From the NCBI GenBank assembly GCA_021850545.1, contig JAJZLU010000035.1:178557-242556 (forward strand): 64,000 nt of DNA. The letters are read 5' to 3'. The notes under the pieces were generated by a model, which searched no databases, was not told where the DNA came from, and worked only from the letters and a program-made list of their open reading frames with translations. The stretch's first letter is position 1. Each line of letters begins with the position of its first letter. This document shows, piece by piece, positions 3,404 to 14,272 of this stretch. The DNA is from Thermoplasmata archaeon. Lineage in GTDB: Archaea; Thermoplasmatota; Thermoplasmata; Thermoplasmatales; Thermoplasmataceae. The position numbers and the translations under genes are program-made.

Positions 3404-4579
3404 CTATTTTTTTCTTGTTTCCTTGAAATAGAAAATGCCGGCTAAAATAAGGATGAATGACGCGGTCACCTGACTGTAGATCAATATGAATCCCACGTAT
3501 GGTAAGACGAAATAAACCTGGCCAACCAAGTCACTAGAAGGCACAGGCAATGGGTCCTTTGCAGGATTATTAATCCCTTTGGTTATGAAATACTCCTGAC
3601 CTTTGCTGTGTGTGATATTGATCACTTCATGTGCAAAGAGGGTGCCGTTCTCCCAAGGGGCCCTGAATACAATGACATCCCCTGTTTTAACCTGATTTAC
3701 TCCTATGTGTGACACGAAAAGTAGAGAACCGGGTATAATCTGCGGGGACATGCTGTCGGTTGGATCAGCAATGACATAGTGTGATTCATGTGTTATCAAT
3801 GGCATGACTACAAGGAGCAATAATATGACAATTATTCCAGAGAATATTACCGCTGAGGTTCGATCTTTTTTCTTAAATACAACTCTACCTGATTTGAATG
3901 CCCTTCTTACTAGGATGGATTCCTTCATTACTCTGTCTGTTAGGTAAAGTATGACTGAAAGTGCTATGATTTCCCAGACTAGATTGAAAAGATTAGAAAC
4001 CTGAACATTTACATTTAGAATAAGGAAGGCCGAATAGATCAGTAGGAAGATCAATGCGGTAGCAAGGTTGAACTTGCTTTTCAAGTACATAAACCCTATT
4101 AAAAAGGAAAAGACGATGAGAAAAGAAATATTGAAGAGAAGAAGTTGAGGGAGTCCATTTAATTGGAGAAATAATTGTATGGGGGTTACACTTAGAGCAT
4201 AAACTATTGAAGAAATTGTAAGCGCAATCATTGGCTTACGCCAGAGAGTTTTGATCACAACCCCCTGATTCATAGAAACTACAGATATGCTAAACAGTAA
4301 TATGTACAGCAGATTTGGGAAAAAAGCTTCTGAGGTACCATATAAATGTATTTTGCCATATGCAATGGCTGGTTCTATGAGCATGAATATGAAGACCAGG
4401 CTAAAGACTAGGGAATACAAAATTGACTTATTCAACTTATAATCAGATGGTCTAGTAAAGATGATTGGGAAAAGAAGAACAAGTACAATGATGAACCTGT
4501 CAATGTGAAAGACAAACCCAACTTGCCAAACTAAAACATACGGAATCACAGTAAGCAATTTCAGGGAGGATCTTTTCAT
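3404..4579 (-). CDS. SipW/S26B-like type I signal peptidase with multi-TM N-terminal extension
   Basis: C-terminal peptidase boxes 'TDSMSPQIIPGSLLFV', 'GDVIVFRAPWENGTLFAHEVI', 'GINNPAKDP'; about 200 aa hydrophobic multi-TM N-terminus. Confidence 0.8.
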   Translation of the reverse strand: MKRSSLKLLTVIPYVLVWQVGFVFHIDRFIIVLVLLFPIIFTRPSDYKLNKSILYSLVFSLVFIFMLIEPAIAYGKIHLYGTSEAFFPNLLYILLFSISVVSMNQGVVIKTLWRKPMIALTISSIVYALSVTPIQLFLQLNGLPQLLLFNISFLIVFSFLIGFMYLKSKFNLATALIFLLIYSAFLILNVNVQVSNLFNLVWEIIALSVILYLTDRVMKESILVRRAFKSGRVVFKKKDRTSAVIFSGIIVILLLLVVMPLITHESHYVIADPTDSMSPQIIPGSLLFVSHIGVNQVKTGDVIVFRAPWENGTLFAHEVINITHSKGQEYFITKGINNPAKDPLPVPSSDLVGQVYFVLPYVGFILIYSQVTASFILILAGIFYFKETRKK

Positions 4580-5520
4580 ATCAACTCATACTTGTACTGT
4601 TCTCCTTGATGGCTGACAAAAAATACCCTATCTGGAACATAGAGAAAAACTGGAACTTCAAATATTTCTGATATTTTCAGTATGTCCTCAAGCCTCATGA
4701 GATTCTTTGCAGACTCTTCCGGTGGCGTGTTAATCTCAATAATTTGTTCACCATGATCTTTCTTTATTTTTTCAAGCGGATCGCCATGCCGTGGTTTATA
4801 CAGGACCGCTAAAACAACGCCTACCAATCCTGCCCCAGCAAGAAAAATGTAACCAAAAACAATGTCTAATCCGATAAGTGTGTGGGGCGTAACCAGTTCC
4901 TGATTATAAGATGAAACAGAAATTGGAACTGGAATGTCGTATGTAACCACCTCATAAGTGCTGTGGAGAGCCATTGAAATGGATGCAGAGAATGAGTCTA
5001 AACCCTGGGAAACAACACTTAGGTTGATGTCCAGTACTGGGACAGAACTACCATCTTGTAATTGAATGTCTATGTTGTCAGCCAGGGCCAATTCCTTGGA
5101 CAGATTAATTCTAATGGGTATTTCAAAGGCCCCTTTTGTTGAGACCTTTTCATAAGTGATGTTTGTATTGATCAATTTTTCCCATGACGGGCTACTTGAT
5201 GCAAGAGAGACTTGTGAAATAAGGGAAAAATTCTTCACGGACATGTTGCTAAGCTCAATGAAGACCTGTGCGCTTAAGTTGATAGAGCTTGTTATTCCAT
5301 TATATATGACTTGAGGGTTTTCTATGCTGGATTGGTTATAAAGTGGATTGGCCAAGAGATTATCGGTTACTGTATAACCGCCGGATATGTCATAACTGGA
5401 AGTGGGGACCTTGATATAGTACTGATGGGCTTCCAGAGAGATTACCATTCCAATTGCGGCCATAATTAGAAGTAATGCAACCAAGATGGCTTTTACCCAT
5501 AATTTATCCTTTCTATCCAA
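4576..5520 (-). CDS. DUF5305-like membrane-anchored protein, translationally coupled to the signal peptidase (ATGA overlap)
   Basis: N-terminal TM, extracytoplasmic beta-rich segment 'YYIKVPTSSYDISGGYTV...', second TM near residue 225, short cytoplasmic tail; adjacency to signal peptidase typical of DUF5305 proteins. Confidence 0.55.
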   Translation of the reverse strand: MDRKDKLWVKAILVALLLIMAAIGMVISLEAHQYYIKVPTSSYDISGGYTVTDNLLANPLYNQSSIENPQVIYNGITSSINLSAQVFIELSNMSVKNFSLISQVSLASSSPSWEKLINTNITYEKVSTKGAFEIPIRINLSKELALADNIDIQLQDGSSVPVLDINLSVVSQGLDSFSASISMALHSTYEVVTYDIPVPISVSSYNQELVTPHTLIGLDIVFGYIFLAGAGLVGVVLAVLYKPRHGDPLEKIKKDHGEQIIEINTPPEESAKNLMRLEDILKISEIFEVPVFLYVPDRVFFVSHQGEQYKYELI

Positions 5521-5749
5521 ACAGTTTCACCGCGAAATTCCCCTATGTAGCAAAGTGGCAATCATCTCCTTTGACCTTTTATGCAACTGAGTTGATCGAG
5601 ATCCCATCAGTATTGTTTTGAGCCCACACTTCCGCTGATCCTGACTTGTGTCTGTATGAAATAACCCATTGTAATATAATAAATGTTTCTGAATTAAATC
5701 CAACCTCCCAAGATCTAATTTATTGTGAAAAGCAAATGCCACTTTGAAA

Positions 5750-6358
5750 TCAATCCGTTTCATTTCCAATCCTTGCCCCACTGTCCTGAAGCTTTGAGTA
5801 TCCGATTTCAATACGCCGCGAAATAAGAATGATGTAAACTGAAATGTAGATGAAAAAAGAGGAAAATAGTAATGTCCCAATAATCATGTCTATTATGGCG
5901 GGAGATAGAATTGAAATCCCTGCATGATAGAAAAACACTGCAATTACATACTGTGAGATTGACACAGAGAAACCATATAGCAAGAGAGCCGCTCTTAGAT
6001 ATGTTGCGGATATTTTCATCCTTGATAGCTCCACAGACGGTTTATAAGCCTTGTTAATCTCTTTGTATAATCTTTCAATCTCATGACCGGCCCCCCCAAA
6101 TGAAGTGGTAAGAGACCTAAACATATGATCATCATCCCCTATAGCGCCTTCCAGGATTTTGTCAACAAGTGTCTTAGATTCACTCTTGGAAAAAAGTGCA
6201 ACCAAATCTGAGGCTATCAATAGGATAGAGATTCTTTGGATTTTATTAGCCTTGTTTTCAATCTTATTTAAGTAGGAAGCAAGTCCCTTTGTAAGGACAA
6301 AATAAATCACAATGGTTGAAGAGATAATGATTGTTGGGATAATAAGTATGAGTAGCAT
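5750..6358 (-). CDS. Multi-pass membrane protein of unknown function
   Basis: Hydrophobic N-terminus and two further hydrophobic segments; same strand as the signal peptidase locus. Confidence 0.6.
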   Translation of the reverse strand: MLLILIIPTIIISSTIVIYFVLTKGLASYLNKIENKANKIQRISILLIASDLVALFSKSESKTLVDKILEGAIGDDDHMFRSLTTSFGGAGHEIERLYKEINKAYKPSVELSRMKISATYLRAALLLYGFSVSISQYVIAVFFYHAGISILSPAIIDMIIGTLLFSSFFIYISVYIILISRRIEIGYSKLQDSGARIGNETD

Positions 6359-6395
6359 TTTCCACCTTTTTCAGAAATTAAGAAGAGAATTTCCA

Positions 6396-7127
6396 TTATT
6401 GCTCATTATGGCCCACCCTATTTATGAACCTCAGCTTTTCTATGATCTGAGACCCGTTTCCTGTGGTTTTGTATAATGTCTTGTCACTTCCATCCTTAGT
6501 AATGCTAAGGAGCTCCCTCTTAATCAGATCGTCTACGATTCTCTTTGCAGAGTTGTAATTGAGATTGCATTTTATGACCAAGTTGTTCAGTGTCGTGCCC
6601 TCTTCGGTTGATGCAGAATTCAAAACCTCGTGGATTAACTTTGTTCTGTCCCTGTATTTCTTCCGTGATTTGTCGCCTTTACTATCCTTTTTCAAAGAAA
6701 AGATCGAACTCTGGTGGAGTTCATTATTACTTTCGATTCCATCTTCCTTCAACGACTTTGACAAGAAATTGACCACTTCATGAACATTTTTTAGAATATC
6801 TATTTTCAATGTATTGGCAAGGAGTTCGACTTCTTCTGGGATTTCCCTCTCACTGAATATGACTTTCCTATCAGCCCCAACATCGTTGCACTGCGCATTG
6901 AAGTAGGTCAACAATGAGAGCCCATTGCGGATATCCCGGCTATAGAGCTTTCCGAGAGCCAGATAGCCATCATCTTCCAGGTAAAATCCAAAATCAAAAT
7001 CGTGTTCCTTCCCAGACTTTCCAAACAACTTTGGAGCCATAAGAAAAGTCCAAATTTCCTTAATAGAAAGGATTTTTCCCCATAAGTTCGCTTGTGATAC
7101 CGACGGTTCTTGATTGGTATATTCCAT
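6396..7127 (-). CDS. Winged-helix transcriptional regulator candidate
   Basis: C-terminal wHTH 'IHEVLNSASTEEGTTLNNLVIKCNLNYNSAKRIVDDLIKRELLSITKDGSDKTLYKTTGNG'. Confidence 0.6.
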   Translation of the reverse strand: MEYTNQEPSVSQANLWGKILSIKEIWTFLMAPKLFGKSGKEHDFDFGFYLEDDGYLALGKLYSRDIRNGLSLLTYFNAQCNDVGADRKVIFSEREIPEEVELLANTLKIDILKNVHEVVNFLSKSLKEDGIESNNELHQSSIFSLKKDSKGDKSRKKYRDRTKLIHEVLNSASTEEGTTLNNLVIKCNLNYNSAKRIVDDLIKRELLSITKDGSDKTLYKTTGNGSQIIEKLRFINRVGHNEQ

Positions 7128-7348
7128 GGAGTCTCCCTTGCCCTTTTTAGAAGGTTAGAAATTATGTTGAAAACTATATTAATATTTTTTGTAAAATTTA
7201 ATTTTGCTGAATCGGCATACTTTTGTGATTGTTTCATTTTTCCAATATTATCTAATGAATTTTTATGATAAGATAAAATAACCTGAAGTGAAGACACTTC
7301 TGGATTGGCTTAGCCTCAAAATCTCCAAAATAACCGTTTTCCAATAAT

Positions 7349-7386
7349 TTAGGTTTTATATATCTAGACTAAATATATATACCTAA
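7349..7386. promoter_or_regulatory. AT-rich imperfect inverted repeat (TTAGGT...ACCTAA) in divergent intergenic region
   Basis: ttaggttttatatat / aaatatatatacctaa; between the divergent wHTH gene and the fibre-subunit candidate. Confidence 0.45.
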
Positions 7387-7408
7387 CCACAATATTTCAA
7401 TTTTGCAT

Positions 7409-7429
7409 GTGCAATCAAGTGGATTGCAC
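7409..7429. promoter_or_regulatory. Perfect inverted repeat GTGCAATC-AAGTG-GATTGCAC
   Basis: 8-bp perfect arms with 5-nt spacer, read directly. Confidence 0.5.
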
Positions 7430-7662
7430 GGTTTGAATCTAACACCAACACGCCCATTGAAGTGCCAATTAGGCTATTCAAATTATTAAATTCCTACAAT
7501 AAGTGCGTTAGACCTTCGTTCTTAGAGCTAAACTAAACTGTCAATAGCATTTGTTTAATTCTTTTCATTATAGTATAAAAATTTAACTAACAAATAATTC
7601 TAACAATCTTTCTACACCACTTAACAGGCACTTATCCATGAATTTTATAAGGTGACATAAAA

Positions 7663-8361
7663 ATGAACAAGAAATTGTTTGCCATGATGATGGTCCCCGT
7701 CGTAGTAGTTATGGGAGGGACTTTCGCTTTTTCCGCTTGGAGCGGACAAGCGAATGCCTACTTTCATGAGTCGGCAGCTACCGTCAGCTATACAGAGACC
7801 CTGAGTTTTGTTGCGACAAACGCCTCGTCATACAACCCTTTGGCGCTGGGATTTAACGGAGGGCAGACCCTCAATGATGTAACTGCTGCCACGCCTGGAA
7901 AGAATTTAGTTACAGTAAACGGAATTGCAGCCTCGACGTTAAATGTATACGGAAACGTTAGTGGTATGCTCCCAGGATATTGGCTTGAGTTCCAGATAAC
8001 AGTGACAAACACAGGAACAGCCACTTTGAACACAAGTATGCTCGATTCCACCTCACCAGTGGCCAATGGTGCAGGCCAGGTCTTTAACAGCCCGGTTCCG
8101 ATAAGTGAGCTGCAGCCCCCAGTAACAAAACAATACTTAAACAGCGTAGTGAACACAGGAAACCTTGGTGGAGGCATTTCAACCAGCGGACTTGATTTCC
8201 TTGCAAATGCGACCTCATCTTCCTCAACGCCTACCTCTCTTGCAGATGGCCAGAGCATAACCTACACACTATACGCCTTCCTGCCTTCAAACGCTTCAGC
8301 ATCCGCACAAGGATCAACATTCAGCTGGGGCCTTGGAATTCCACTATCTCCGCTTGAGTAA
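7663..8361 (+). CDS. TasA/camelysin/AbpA-like secreted fibre-subunit candidate with SipW-type signal peptide
   Basis: MNKKLFAMMMVPVVVVMGGTFAFSAWSGQANAYF signal; beta-rich cysteine-free body with 'PGYWLEFQITVTNTGTATL'; co-located with SipW-like peptidase and DUF5305-like gene. Confidence 0.65.
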   Translation: MNKKLFAMMMVPVVVVMGGTFAFSAWSGQANAYFHESAATVSYTETLSFVATNASSYNPLALGFNGGQTLNDVTAATPGKNLVTVNGIAASTLNVYGNVSGMLPGYWLEFQITVTNTGTATLNTSMLDSTSPVANGAGQVFNSPVPISELQPPVTKQYLNSVVNTGNLGGGISTSGLDFLANATSSSSTPTSLADGQSITYTLYAFLPSNASASAQGSTFSWGLGIPLSPLE

Positions 8362-8716: not shown

Positions 8717-8790
8717 GGGTCCGTAGCTTAGCTAGGTAGAGCGATGGACTCTTAATCCATAGGTCGGGGGTTCGAACCCCCTCGGACCCG
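8717..8790 (+). tRNA. tRNA-Lys (anticodon CTT)
   Basis: Acceptor GGGTCCG/CGGACCC, anticodon stem ATGGA/TCCAT with loop CTCTTAA, T-arm GGGGGTTCGAACCCCC. Confidence 0.93.
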
Positions 8791-8916
8791 CTTAATCTCT
8801 GTTTTATCCTGTGAGGATTTTCAATGTTAGAATTTTGTAGGTTGGCAGGAAGGTATCCATCTTTCAGTTTTGAATGTGGGAGAAGTTAGGATAAGACCAG
8901 TTTGAAAGAAATTCTT

Positions 8917-10267: not shown

Positions 10268-10281
10268 TATATACGTATATA
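10268..10281. promoter_or_regulatory. 14-bp perfect palindrome TATATACGTATATA at the antitoxin start codon
   Basis: Read directly; last base is the A of the VapB ATG at 10281. Confidence 0.5.
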
Positions 10282-10565
10282 TGGTTAAGACTAAAGTAAC
10301 ATTGTCCATAGAAAAACCAGTGGTGGACAACGCTAAACTGGCTTTATTGAAAAAAGGAAGAACTATGAGCGACTACATCGAAAAATCACTACGATCCCTC
10401 TCTTCTTCAGATATCCTTGAAGATCTGTGCAAGGAAATGGAACTTGATTGTGAATACATTAGTGGAGAGGAAATAGAGAGGCAAAGGCCAGATTTCAAAG
10501 GAAAAGTATTGGCTGAGAAAGAAGTCAGGGAGATGAGAAATGGTAGAAGAACGCGTATATCTTGA
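10281..10565 (+). CDS. vapB: VapB-like antitoxin
   Basis: N-terminal ribbon-helix-helix-like 'TKVTLSIEKPVVDNAKLALLKKGRTMSDYIEKSLRSL', overlaps downstream PIN gene by 26 nt. Confidence 0.75.
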   Translation: MVKTKVTLSIEKPVVDNAKLALLKKGRTMSDYIEKSLRSLSSSDILEDLCKEMELDCEYISGEEIERQRPDFKGKVLAEKEVREMRNGRRTRIS

Positions 10566-10980
10566 TACAAGCATTCTGGTCAAGAGATATGTTATGGAAA
10601 ATGATAGTGAAACAGCCGATGAGGTATTCCATCTTGCCCAGCGGGGGAAGACCGTGATCTGCTTTTCTGAAATAAACCTTGGGGAAGCGGCTGTAGTTTT
10701 TGATAAATACTCAAGAAAAGTGGGAATAGATCCAACAGACAGGGTCCGTGCAATGCTCAGAGAGTTGACATCGCTTGAAAGGTCATCTTCTGTGGAAATA
10801 TATCCGGTGAGCAGTCAGATAGTCCGGAAATCAATAAAAACAGTGCTGAAAAATCACCTATACATAGTAGATGCAATTCAGCTTGAAACCTGTCTAGAGG
10901 CTAAGGGAACTGTTTTCTTATCTGCCGACAAAGAACTGGTATCATCTGCAGAAAAACTGGGATTAGAAACCAGATTGTAA
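10540..10980 (+). CDS. vapC: VapC-like PIN-domain toxin
   Basis: 'VYLDTSILVKRYV', 'INLGEAAVVFDKY', 'HLYIVDAIQLETCL', 'FLSADKELVSSAEKLGL'. Confidence 0.85.
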   Translation: MVEERVYLDTSILVKRYVMENDSETADEVFHLAQRGKTVICFSEINLGEAAVVFDKYSRKVGIDPTDRVRAMLRELTSLERSSSVEIYPVSSQIVRKSIKTVLKNHLYIVDAIQLETCLEAKGTVFLSADKELVSSAEKLGLETRL

Positions 10981-13240: not shown

Positions 13241-14272
13241 TCATGCTTGAATTAAATGTAAGTTGCAGTTCCCTTCAGTTTCAGTTGGTGAAACTATAGA
13301 CTTATAGGCAATTTCCATAATTGCCCTGCATGTGTAATAATCCAGCCTTCGCCTTCTGATGCCGTTCTTCATATTACCCTTGAATGGCGAAAGCAGGATG
13401 TCATCTGTATCCTTGCGGTATTTTTCCAGAATCTGGTTGCAGGCCTCGATGAATGGCTGCAATATGCCATCAGGAATTTCTGCATCAATAACAGTAATGA
13501 TTCTGGAGCTGGCCTTTATTTTACTCATGTCATAGTCCAGTTCATCCCTTTTCGTGAATCGAATCTTCCTGCTGGGATCTGTAGTGTCCACGGCCCTCAA
13601 GCCAATATTGCCTATGGTGGAGTTGAACCTGATCCTCATTTCGTTCGAGGGATGTAATCTCTTGGCTTCGAGATCACCTAGGGTGGAACTGTAATGGCCA
13701 TTCTTGTATACCTTTACATTCTGCGGAGGCTTGGAAATTCCATCGAAACAGGCTACACAAACTGGACTTTCAGTCTCTGTGAAAGGGTTTTCCTCCAAAA
13801 TATTTATGGAATACAGCCTCTCTTTGGGAAATGGAGAGTTGACAAAGGTCTCAGGCACTATGGCAACAACGTATTCCTGTGCCTCAAGCATCTTTGACAG
13901 CGCAAGTAGGTAAAGGTCATCAAACCTGGTCTGCTCAAAATAGTGTTTCACTCTGCCATAGATGTGCCTTCTCTTTGCACTGTAGTTTGAAAGATACGGC
14001 GGATTTGTTACTATTATGGCATTTTGTACTGTGGGAATTCCAGATAGGCTGTCATTGAATTCCCACCCGAGGGATTCGTCGATGTCCATCCCCCTGAAAT
14101 TCCTGTACCCCAAATTCTGAACTGCTTTCAACAGGTCTCCAGATCCGGCGAAAGGATCGTACACCACCGAGCACTGCGACTCCAAGATGAAATTCCTGAT
14201 GTTATCCTTCATCCAGACACTGCCCTTGGTAAAATACTGGCCCAAACCTCTTTTCTTTGAATCCGGATTCAT
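13241..14272 (-). CDS. N6-adenine DNA methyltransferase, apparently orphan
   Basis: 'GLGQYFTKGSVW', 'VYDPFAGSGDLLKAV', 'AIIVTNPPYLSNYSAKRRH'. Confidence 0.85.
   Translation of the reverse strand: MNPDSKKRGLGQYFTKGSVWMKDNIRNFILESQCSVVYDPFAGSGDLLKAVQNLGYRNFRGMDIDESLGWEFNDSLSGIPTVQNAIIVTNPPYLSNYSAKRRHIYGRVKHYFEQTRFDDLYLLALSKMLEAQEYVVAIVPETFVNSPFPKERLYSINILEENPFTETESPVCVACFDGISKPPQNVKVYKNGHYSSTLGDLEAKRLHPSNEMRIRFNSTIGNIGLRAVDTTDPSRKIRFTKRDELDYDMSKIKASSRIITVIDAEIPDGILQPFIEACNQILEKYRKDTDDILLSPFKGNMKNGIRRRRLDYYTCRAIMEIAYKSIVSPTETEGNCNLHLIQA

Follow-up and report, generated by a model that had tools for sequence, protein, structure and literature searches.

Organization of the Locus

We analyzed a stretch of 64,000 nucleotides (nt) from contig JAJZLU010000035.1 (positions 178,557 to 242,556, assembly GCA_021850545.1) of a Thermoplasmata archaeon, hereafter called the window, in which five genes likely constitute a distant extracellular fibre locus of the TasA/archaeal bundling pilus (ABP) type. 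The five open reading frames (ORFs) were present at exactly the coordinates given in an initial annotation of this DNA, and our ORF check agreed with the gene content, strands and 4-nt overlap described there. The gene for a secreted protein (7663..8361, plus strand, 232 aa), which profile homology assigns as a TasA/AbpX-like candidate fibre subunit, is divergent from a minus-strand block at 3404-7127. This block comprises a signal peptidase I (3404..4579, 391 aa), recognized by TIGR02228, invariant residues and hydropathy; a DUF5305-like membrane protein with two transmembrane (TM) segments (4576..5520, 314 aa), recognized by PF17231, its AlphaFold model and hydropathy; a TM protein of 202 aa, here TM202 (5750..6358), defined by hydropathy and its family alignment (A5); and a winged helix-turn-helix (wHTH) transcription regulator with an HTH_45/Sso10a-like C-terminal domain (6396..7127, 243 aa), assigned by Pfam HTH_45. 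The DUF5305 and peptidase genes share 4 nt (ATGA). The label "multi-TM protein" in the initial annotation fits the TM202 gene, with the correction that the peptidase is polytopic as well, about 240 of its residues being rich in predicted helices.

Signal Peptide and Predicted Structure of the Secreted Protein

The secreted protein carries a putative SipW-type signal peptide at residues 1-24 (7663..7734, +), which ends in GGTFAFS and is defined by conservation in an alignment of 38 relatives (A1) and by the helix of the model. In A1, A22 was conserved in 38/38 sequences, S24 and A25 in 36/38 each, and residue 26 was Phe or Trp in all 38; A22 and P104 were the only invariant residues. Cleavage probably takes place between S24 and A25, which would give a mature start of A-[FW], like the AF(ND) start of the TasA chain. 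TasA has Phe at mature position 2; this aromatic residue renders it a poor substrate of LepB, and SipW cleaves it (PMC10269814). The window family likewise displays the features of SipW-dependent proteins, namely an aromatic residue two residues past the inferred cleavage site (38/38) and an adjoining gene for a Ser-His peptidase, and this anatomy agrees with the signal type initially proposed. TIGR04088, the model of signals with a cognate SipW, did not match the window protein and matched two of the 25 members of a second alignment of the secreted family (A4), into which divergent f14 and f15 proteins were brought (best E=0.0046).

The mature window protein lacks Cys, and Pfam and NCBIfam searches of the secreted protein returned no family above any cut-off. 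Charged residues (D+E+K+R) make up 5.3% of the mature window protein and 6.9% on average in the family; this low charge fits an acid exterior, with figures taken from this family alone. AlphaFold predicted one N-terminal helix (residues 3-26) followed by mostly beta strands, with a mean predicted local distance difference test (pLDDT) of 79.8 and a predicted template modeling score (pTM) of 0.70. The sole segment with pLDDT below 50 was residues 27-36. On the basis of this low pLDDT and of the alignment of A4 with TasA described below, residues 25-42 (7735..7788, +) are a candidate N-terminal donor strand, a role suggested by analogy with TasA.

Homology to AbpX and TasA

Profile comparisons supported the secreted protein as a distant member of the TasA/AbpX family. 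When the A4 profile was compared with PDB, AbpX was the top match (9sj2, E=7.6e-8; 9rhp, E=3.1e-7) and the next match had E=0.028; with the A1 profile against all PDB chains, AbpX again came first (E=0.01), followed by TasA (E=0.14). An hhalign comparison of A4 with Bacillus subtilis TasA gave 91% over the signal, the N-terminal strand and the core motif, and its score of 47.6 lay above those of all 100 shuffles with the signal retained, of which the highest reached 27.5. Residues 28-261 of the TasA query agree letter by letter with PDB 8aur, a check that stops short of the signal peptide (residues 1-27), which lies outside the 8aur chain. The mature part alone, a comparison independent of these residues, scored 32.3 against a shuffle maximum of 19.8. 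Furthermore, A4 aligned at 96.6% (E=5e-10) with a profile of five TasA/CalY proteins (A7), four of them annotated in plasmid records and the fifth B. subtilis TasA.

Among the 38 relatives, 22 matched the Pfam camelysin/TasA model Peptidase_M73 at E<=1 (best 2.8e-5). The same model exceeded its cut-off in none of 117 genomes of the order, with B. subtilis and Methanosarcina acetivorans as positive controls, and gave no match for the window protein; the CalY and BsaA models likewise yielded nothing above cut-off for the window locus. AbpA was absent from the profile matches against PDB, and a single-sequence phmmer search of PDB with one relative returned one chance match.

The Signal Peptidase

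The peptidase passed TIGR02228, the archaeal signal peptidase I model, with 96.2 bits (cut-off 51.85), and did not pass NF046067, the equivalog model of Bacillus SipW (57 bits, cut-off 190); judged by these scores, it is SipW-like and not SipW. After some 240 residues with many predicted membrane helices come an ER/archaeal-type Ser-His catalytic domain and a C-terminal TM segment. Across 13 relatives (alignment A3), S276, H317 and D342/D350 were invariant. When the A3 profile was compared with solved structures, the catalytic part alone aligned, with human SEC11A as the best match (E=1.3e-10) and H317 placed on its His. The genome has another signal peptidase ORF, 111 aa long, away from the locus (C30:73696-73917), and similar ORFs occur in relatives of the genus. 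Because this separate small ORF is present, the enzyme of the locus looks dedicated.

Relatives of the peptidase catalytic domain were found in 12 plasmid records, whose surroundings we examined in 11 (all except H11); those of H9 bear no annotation, leaving 10 annotated surroundings. Genes annotated as TasA, CalY or SipW-dependent lay near the peptidase relative in six of these 10 (H1, H2, H5, H6, H10, and H12), from haloarchaea, Actinomycetota and Lacticaseibacillus. No such gene was annotated near the peptidase in H3, H4, H7, and H8, the last of which has the same layout as H6. As a separate observation, two Natronorubrum plasmids (L217 5354-7346 and L223 3309-5316) share a trio of genes with overlapping starts and stops, encoding a protein (DUF7344 in L217), a signal peptidase and a hypothetical protein.

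The DUF5305-like Protein

The window protein scored 26.1 bits against DUF5305 (PF17231), under the Pfam cut-off of 29, and 10 of 16 aligned relatives matched this model (best E=2.1e-11). Its topology consists of a TM segment (4-30), a beta-rich domain (∼34-210), a second TM segment (220-240) and a small alpha/beta domain (248-312), of which the beta-rich domain would face outward and the alpha/beta domain inward. The AlphaFold model had a pLDDT of 84.2 and a pTM of 0.51, and a Foldseek search with it gave no significant match. A tblastn search of the plasmids with a relative of this protein yielded no match, a profile scan of the genome contigs recovered two close relatives only, and the literature search turned up no paper on DUF5305 function. 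The overlap of the DUF5305 and peptidase genes recalls that of tapA and sipW, which also overlap (PMC10151520), and by analogy the DUF5305-like protein may be a TapA-like anchor or filament starter.

Conservation and Gene Order in Relatives

Among the 117 genomes, the peptidase and the DUF5305-like protein were detected in the identical set of 17. The secreted protein was found in 19, of which 16 also have the peptidase/DUF5305 pair. Fisher tests, which ignore shared ancestry, gave p values of ∼8e-21 for peptidase against DUF5305 and ∼8e-16 against the secreted protein. Relatives with complete genomes bear the locus as well.

Gene maps of f1, f5, f14, and f15 revealed about seven gene orders, with the genes kept within ∼3-8 kb, and the core of peptidase, DUF5305-like protein and secreted protein reaches across the class in these four families. 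The order wHTH-TM202-DUF5305-peptidase with a divergent subunit gene is shared by the window, G049, G079, and a truncated locus in G032. Three subunit genes characterize the loci of G080, G102, G104, G105, and G106b, and two wHTH genes those of G041, G062, G067, and G069, with a variant in G066. G111, the G094/G095 pair and family f14 each have an arrangement of their own. In f15, whose loci lack both wHTH and TM202, one to three subunit genes accompany those of the peptidase and DUF5305; in two f15 stretches DUF5305 alone was visible. The 4-nt overlap of the DUF5305 and peptidase genes recurs in most f1 loci and some f15 loci, and almost every locus of the type in f1, f5, and f14 includes a wHTH gene. 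Chance co-location of the genes was ruled out by linkage kept through these many changes of order.

The G079 locus occupies the same site as that of the window, beside rpl3-rpl4-rpl23-rpl2, and has therefore been inherited vertically at least between these two; apart from them, the distribution of the locus is patchy. In relatives, the locus often holds two or three subunit genes, with extra copies elsewhere; a single subunit gene was seen in the window genome. Two further observations concern these genes. In G104 (L102 7282-9868), an insertion with a transposase-like ORF of 501 aa interrupts the DUF5305 gene, and the adjoining peptidase and three subunit genes are still open. Tandem pairs of subunit genes also occur apart from any detected peptidase/DUF5305 pair (L103 7513-9086 in G104; L104 1500-3073 in G079).

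Regulator, TM202 and Neighboring Features

The wHTH protein passed Pfam HTH_45 (39.2 bits, cut-off 25.5) and scored 34.1 bits against NCBIfam Sso10a, under the cut-off of 60. Hydropathy of TM202 indicated an N-terminal TM segment, a central soluble stretch and C-terminal TM segments, and the family gave nothing consistent in Pfam or PDB. TM202 adjoins the wHTH gene at most f1 loci, and a paralogous TM202 and wHTH pair is found in the same genome (G000:C12, L108 8178-9636, minus strand). This repeated neighborhood suggests that TM202 is a membrane partner of the regulator. No subunit or peptidase gene accompanies the paralogous pair, which lies near DUF211 and VIT1-like genes.

In the divergent intergenic region, an unstranded block, TCTAGACT (7363..7370), is identical in three related loci and is possibly a site of the regulator. 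Alignment of the three intergenic regions also revealed a conserved TATA-like block (7574..7590, +), a candidate promoter of the secreted-protein gene, and a GGTGA site resembling a ribosome-binding site can be read at 7651-7655.

Other features lie further along the window. A tRNA-Lys (CTT) gene is situated directly 3' of the secreted-protein gene (8717-8791, +), genes for a DUF6364-like and a PIN-domain protein, the second overlapping the first, form a VapBC-type toxin-antitoxin pair (10281-10980, +), and the product of 13241-14272 (-) resembles DNA methylases and weakly matches Eco57I and N6_N4_Mtase.

Discussion

Taken as a whole, we consider it likely that the locus specifies distant extracellular fibres of the TasA/ABP type. 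What distinguishes it may be its dedicated and unusually polytopic peptidase together with a two-TM DUF5305 protein as a possible assembly anchor. The initial annotation had described a complete module for secretion, processing and regulation. This proposal is supported in part: profile homology, signal anatomy and class-wide synteny uphold a conserved module around a distant TasA/AbpX-family protein. "Complete" was an overstatement, as the loci of relatives frequently contain two or three subunit genes, with further copies at other sites, where the window genome shows one. The proposed synteny check also turned out well, in that relatives of the secreted protein co-occur with the peptidase/DUF5305 pair. 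The annotation was to be given up if the fold was not TasA-like and relatives moreover never co-occurred with this pair; since they do co-occur, that joint outcome did not arise.

The system could operate as follows. First, the pre-subunit would leave the cell via Sec. Second, the neighboring Ser-His signal peptidase would cut it, probably at S24/A25. Third, the freed N-terminus, A-W/F followed by a flexible stretch, would serve as a donor strand that completes the beta-sandwich of the next subunit in the polymerizing filament. The DUF5305-like protein would anchor or start the filament, taking the place that TapA has in Bacillus, and expression from the intergenic region between the divergent genes would be under the control of the wHTH regulator and TM202.

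Several observations weigh against a fibre locus. The structural search suggested in the initial annotation did not bear out a TasA- or AbpA-like fold: Foldseek of the secreted-protein model against PDB gave no match at E<=0.001, TasA and AbpA were absent from the 50 best rows, and TM-scores by query length stayed below 0.25 in the rows listed. The homology is confined largely to the signal region plus a single core motif, ∼25-80 residues, the strong AbpX score depends on the divergent f14 and f15 members, and the window protein itself matches no TasA or camelysin model. Three genomes (G046, G064, and G074) possess the secreted protein with no detected peptidase/DUF5305 pair. In addition, a cryo-electron microscopy study of two Thermoplasmatales described type-IV-like pili and archaella, and TasA is not mentioned in its text.

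The secreted protein might instead be a non-polymerizing envelope protein, part of the disordered coat of Thermoplasmatales, which lack a surface layer (S-layer), and be processed by a dedicated SipW-like peptidase. Thermoplasmatales have an unordered glycoprotein layer, and the family holds 225 N-glycosylation sequons where 176 were expected; a few members weakly match a haloarchaeal S-layer model and DUF11, and Foldseek does not group the protein with fibre subunits. Nevertheless, its best profile relatives of solved structure, AbpX and TasA, are filament subunits, the N-terminus after the signal is both conserved and flexible, and relatives carry tandem subunit genes. We regard this explanation as unlikely.

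Still less probable, and in our view a slim chance, is that the likeness to TasA and AbpX reflects a short beta motif (PGD...N.G) of DUF11/CARDB-type extracellular domains, the locus making some other surface product. The A1-TasA alignment spans just 32 residues, the same profiles weakly match CEP192 and methane monooxygenase B through this motif, and DUF11-like matches occur in the family. However, the alignments of A4 with TasA and with A7 take in the signal and the N-terminal strand, the E value of AbpX is better than those of the motif-only matches by over five orders of magnitude, and a separate line of evidence comes from the linkage to a SipW-like peptidase. We rejected as scarcely credible a secreted metalloprotease system resembling camelysin: although 22 of the 38 relatives match the Pfam camelysin metallo-endopeptidase model, none above cut-off in the genome search, that family holds fibre proteins too, and with A22 and P104 alone invariant in A1, the alignment shows no conserved residue that could serve catalysis or bind a metal.

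The TasA/ABP-type reading can be compared with four known systems. Like the window locus, the tapA-sipW-tasA operon of B. subtilis encodes a beta-rich secreted protein whose signal is of the GGT type and whose mature form starts with AF/AW. It also has a dedicated Ser-His signal peptidase, the gene of which overlaps that of a third protein. In contrast, the window sequence is distant, its mature subunit is only 5% charged, its peptidase bears ∼240 extra polytopic residues, a DUF5305-like protein stands where Bacillus has TapA, the cluster includes a wHTH regulator and TM202, and the likeness is absent in Foldseek. The AbpA/AbpX bundling pili of Pyrobaculum and Pyrodictium supply the top profile match among solved structures, AbpX, whereas the window organism belongs to a different phylum. 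In Bacillus cereus, sipW-calY loci place several paralogous subunits beside one SipW-like peptidase (PMC10151520); this resembles the multiple subunits per locus in G080, G102, G104, G105, and G106b and differs from the single subunit gene of the window. The Sulfolobus thread (Saci_0406) is a donor-strand filament of an acidophilic archaeon whose subunit has a class I signal peptide (PMC9715654). The window family shares this signal type and belongs to an acid-dwelling archaeal group, and a donor-strand filament is proposed for it; it lacks the N-terminal Asp and the YYY motif of the thread, and no thread entry appeared among the PDB profile matches of A1 or A4.

As a tentative suggestion, possible rather than probable, DUF5305 proteins could stand in for TapA as membrane-bound nucleators of TasA-type donor-strand fibres or as platforms for their assembly, with the extra membrane domain of the polytopic peptidase passing newly cut subunits to the growing filament. 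If the locus does encode such fibres, TasA-type donor-strand fibres would extend to the Thermoplasmata, which include a cultured, acid-living order without an S-layer, and the genes likely responsible for their processing and assembly could be named, which would give DUF5305 a role.

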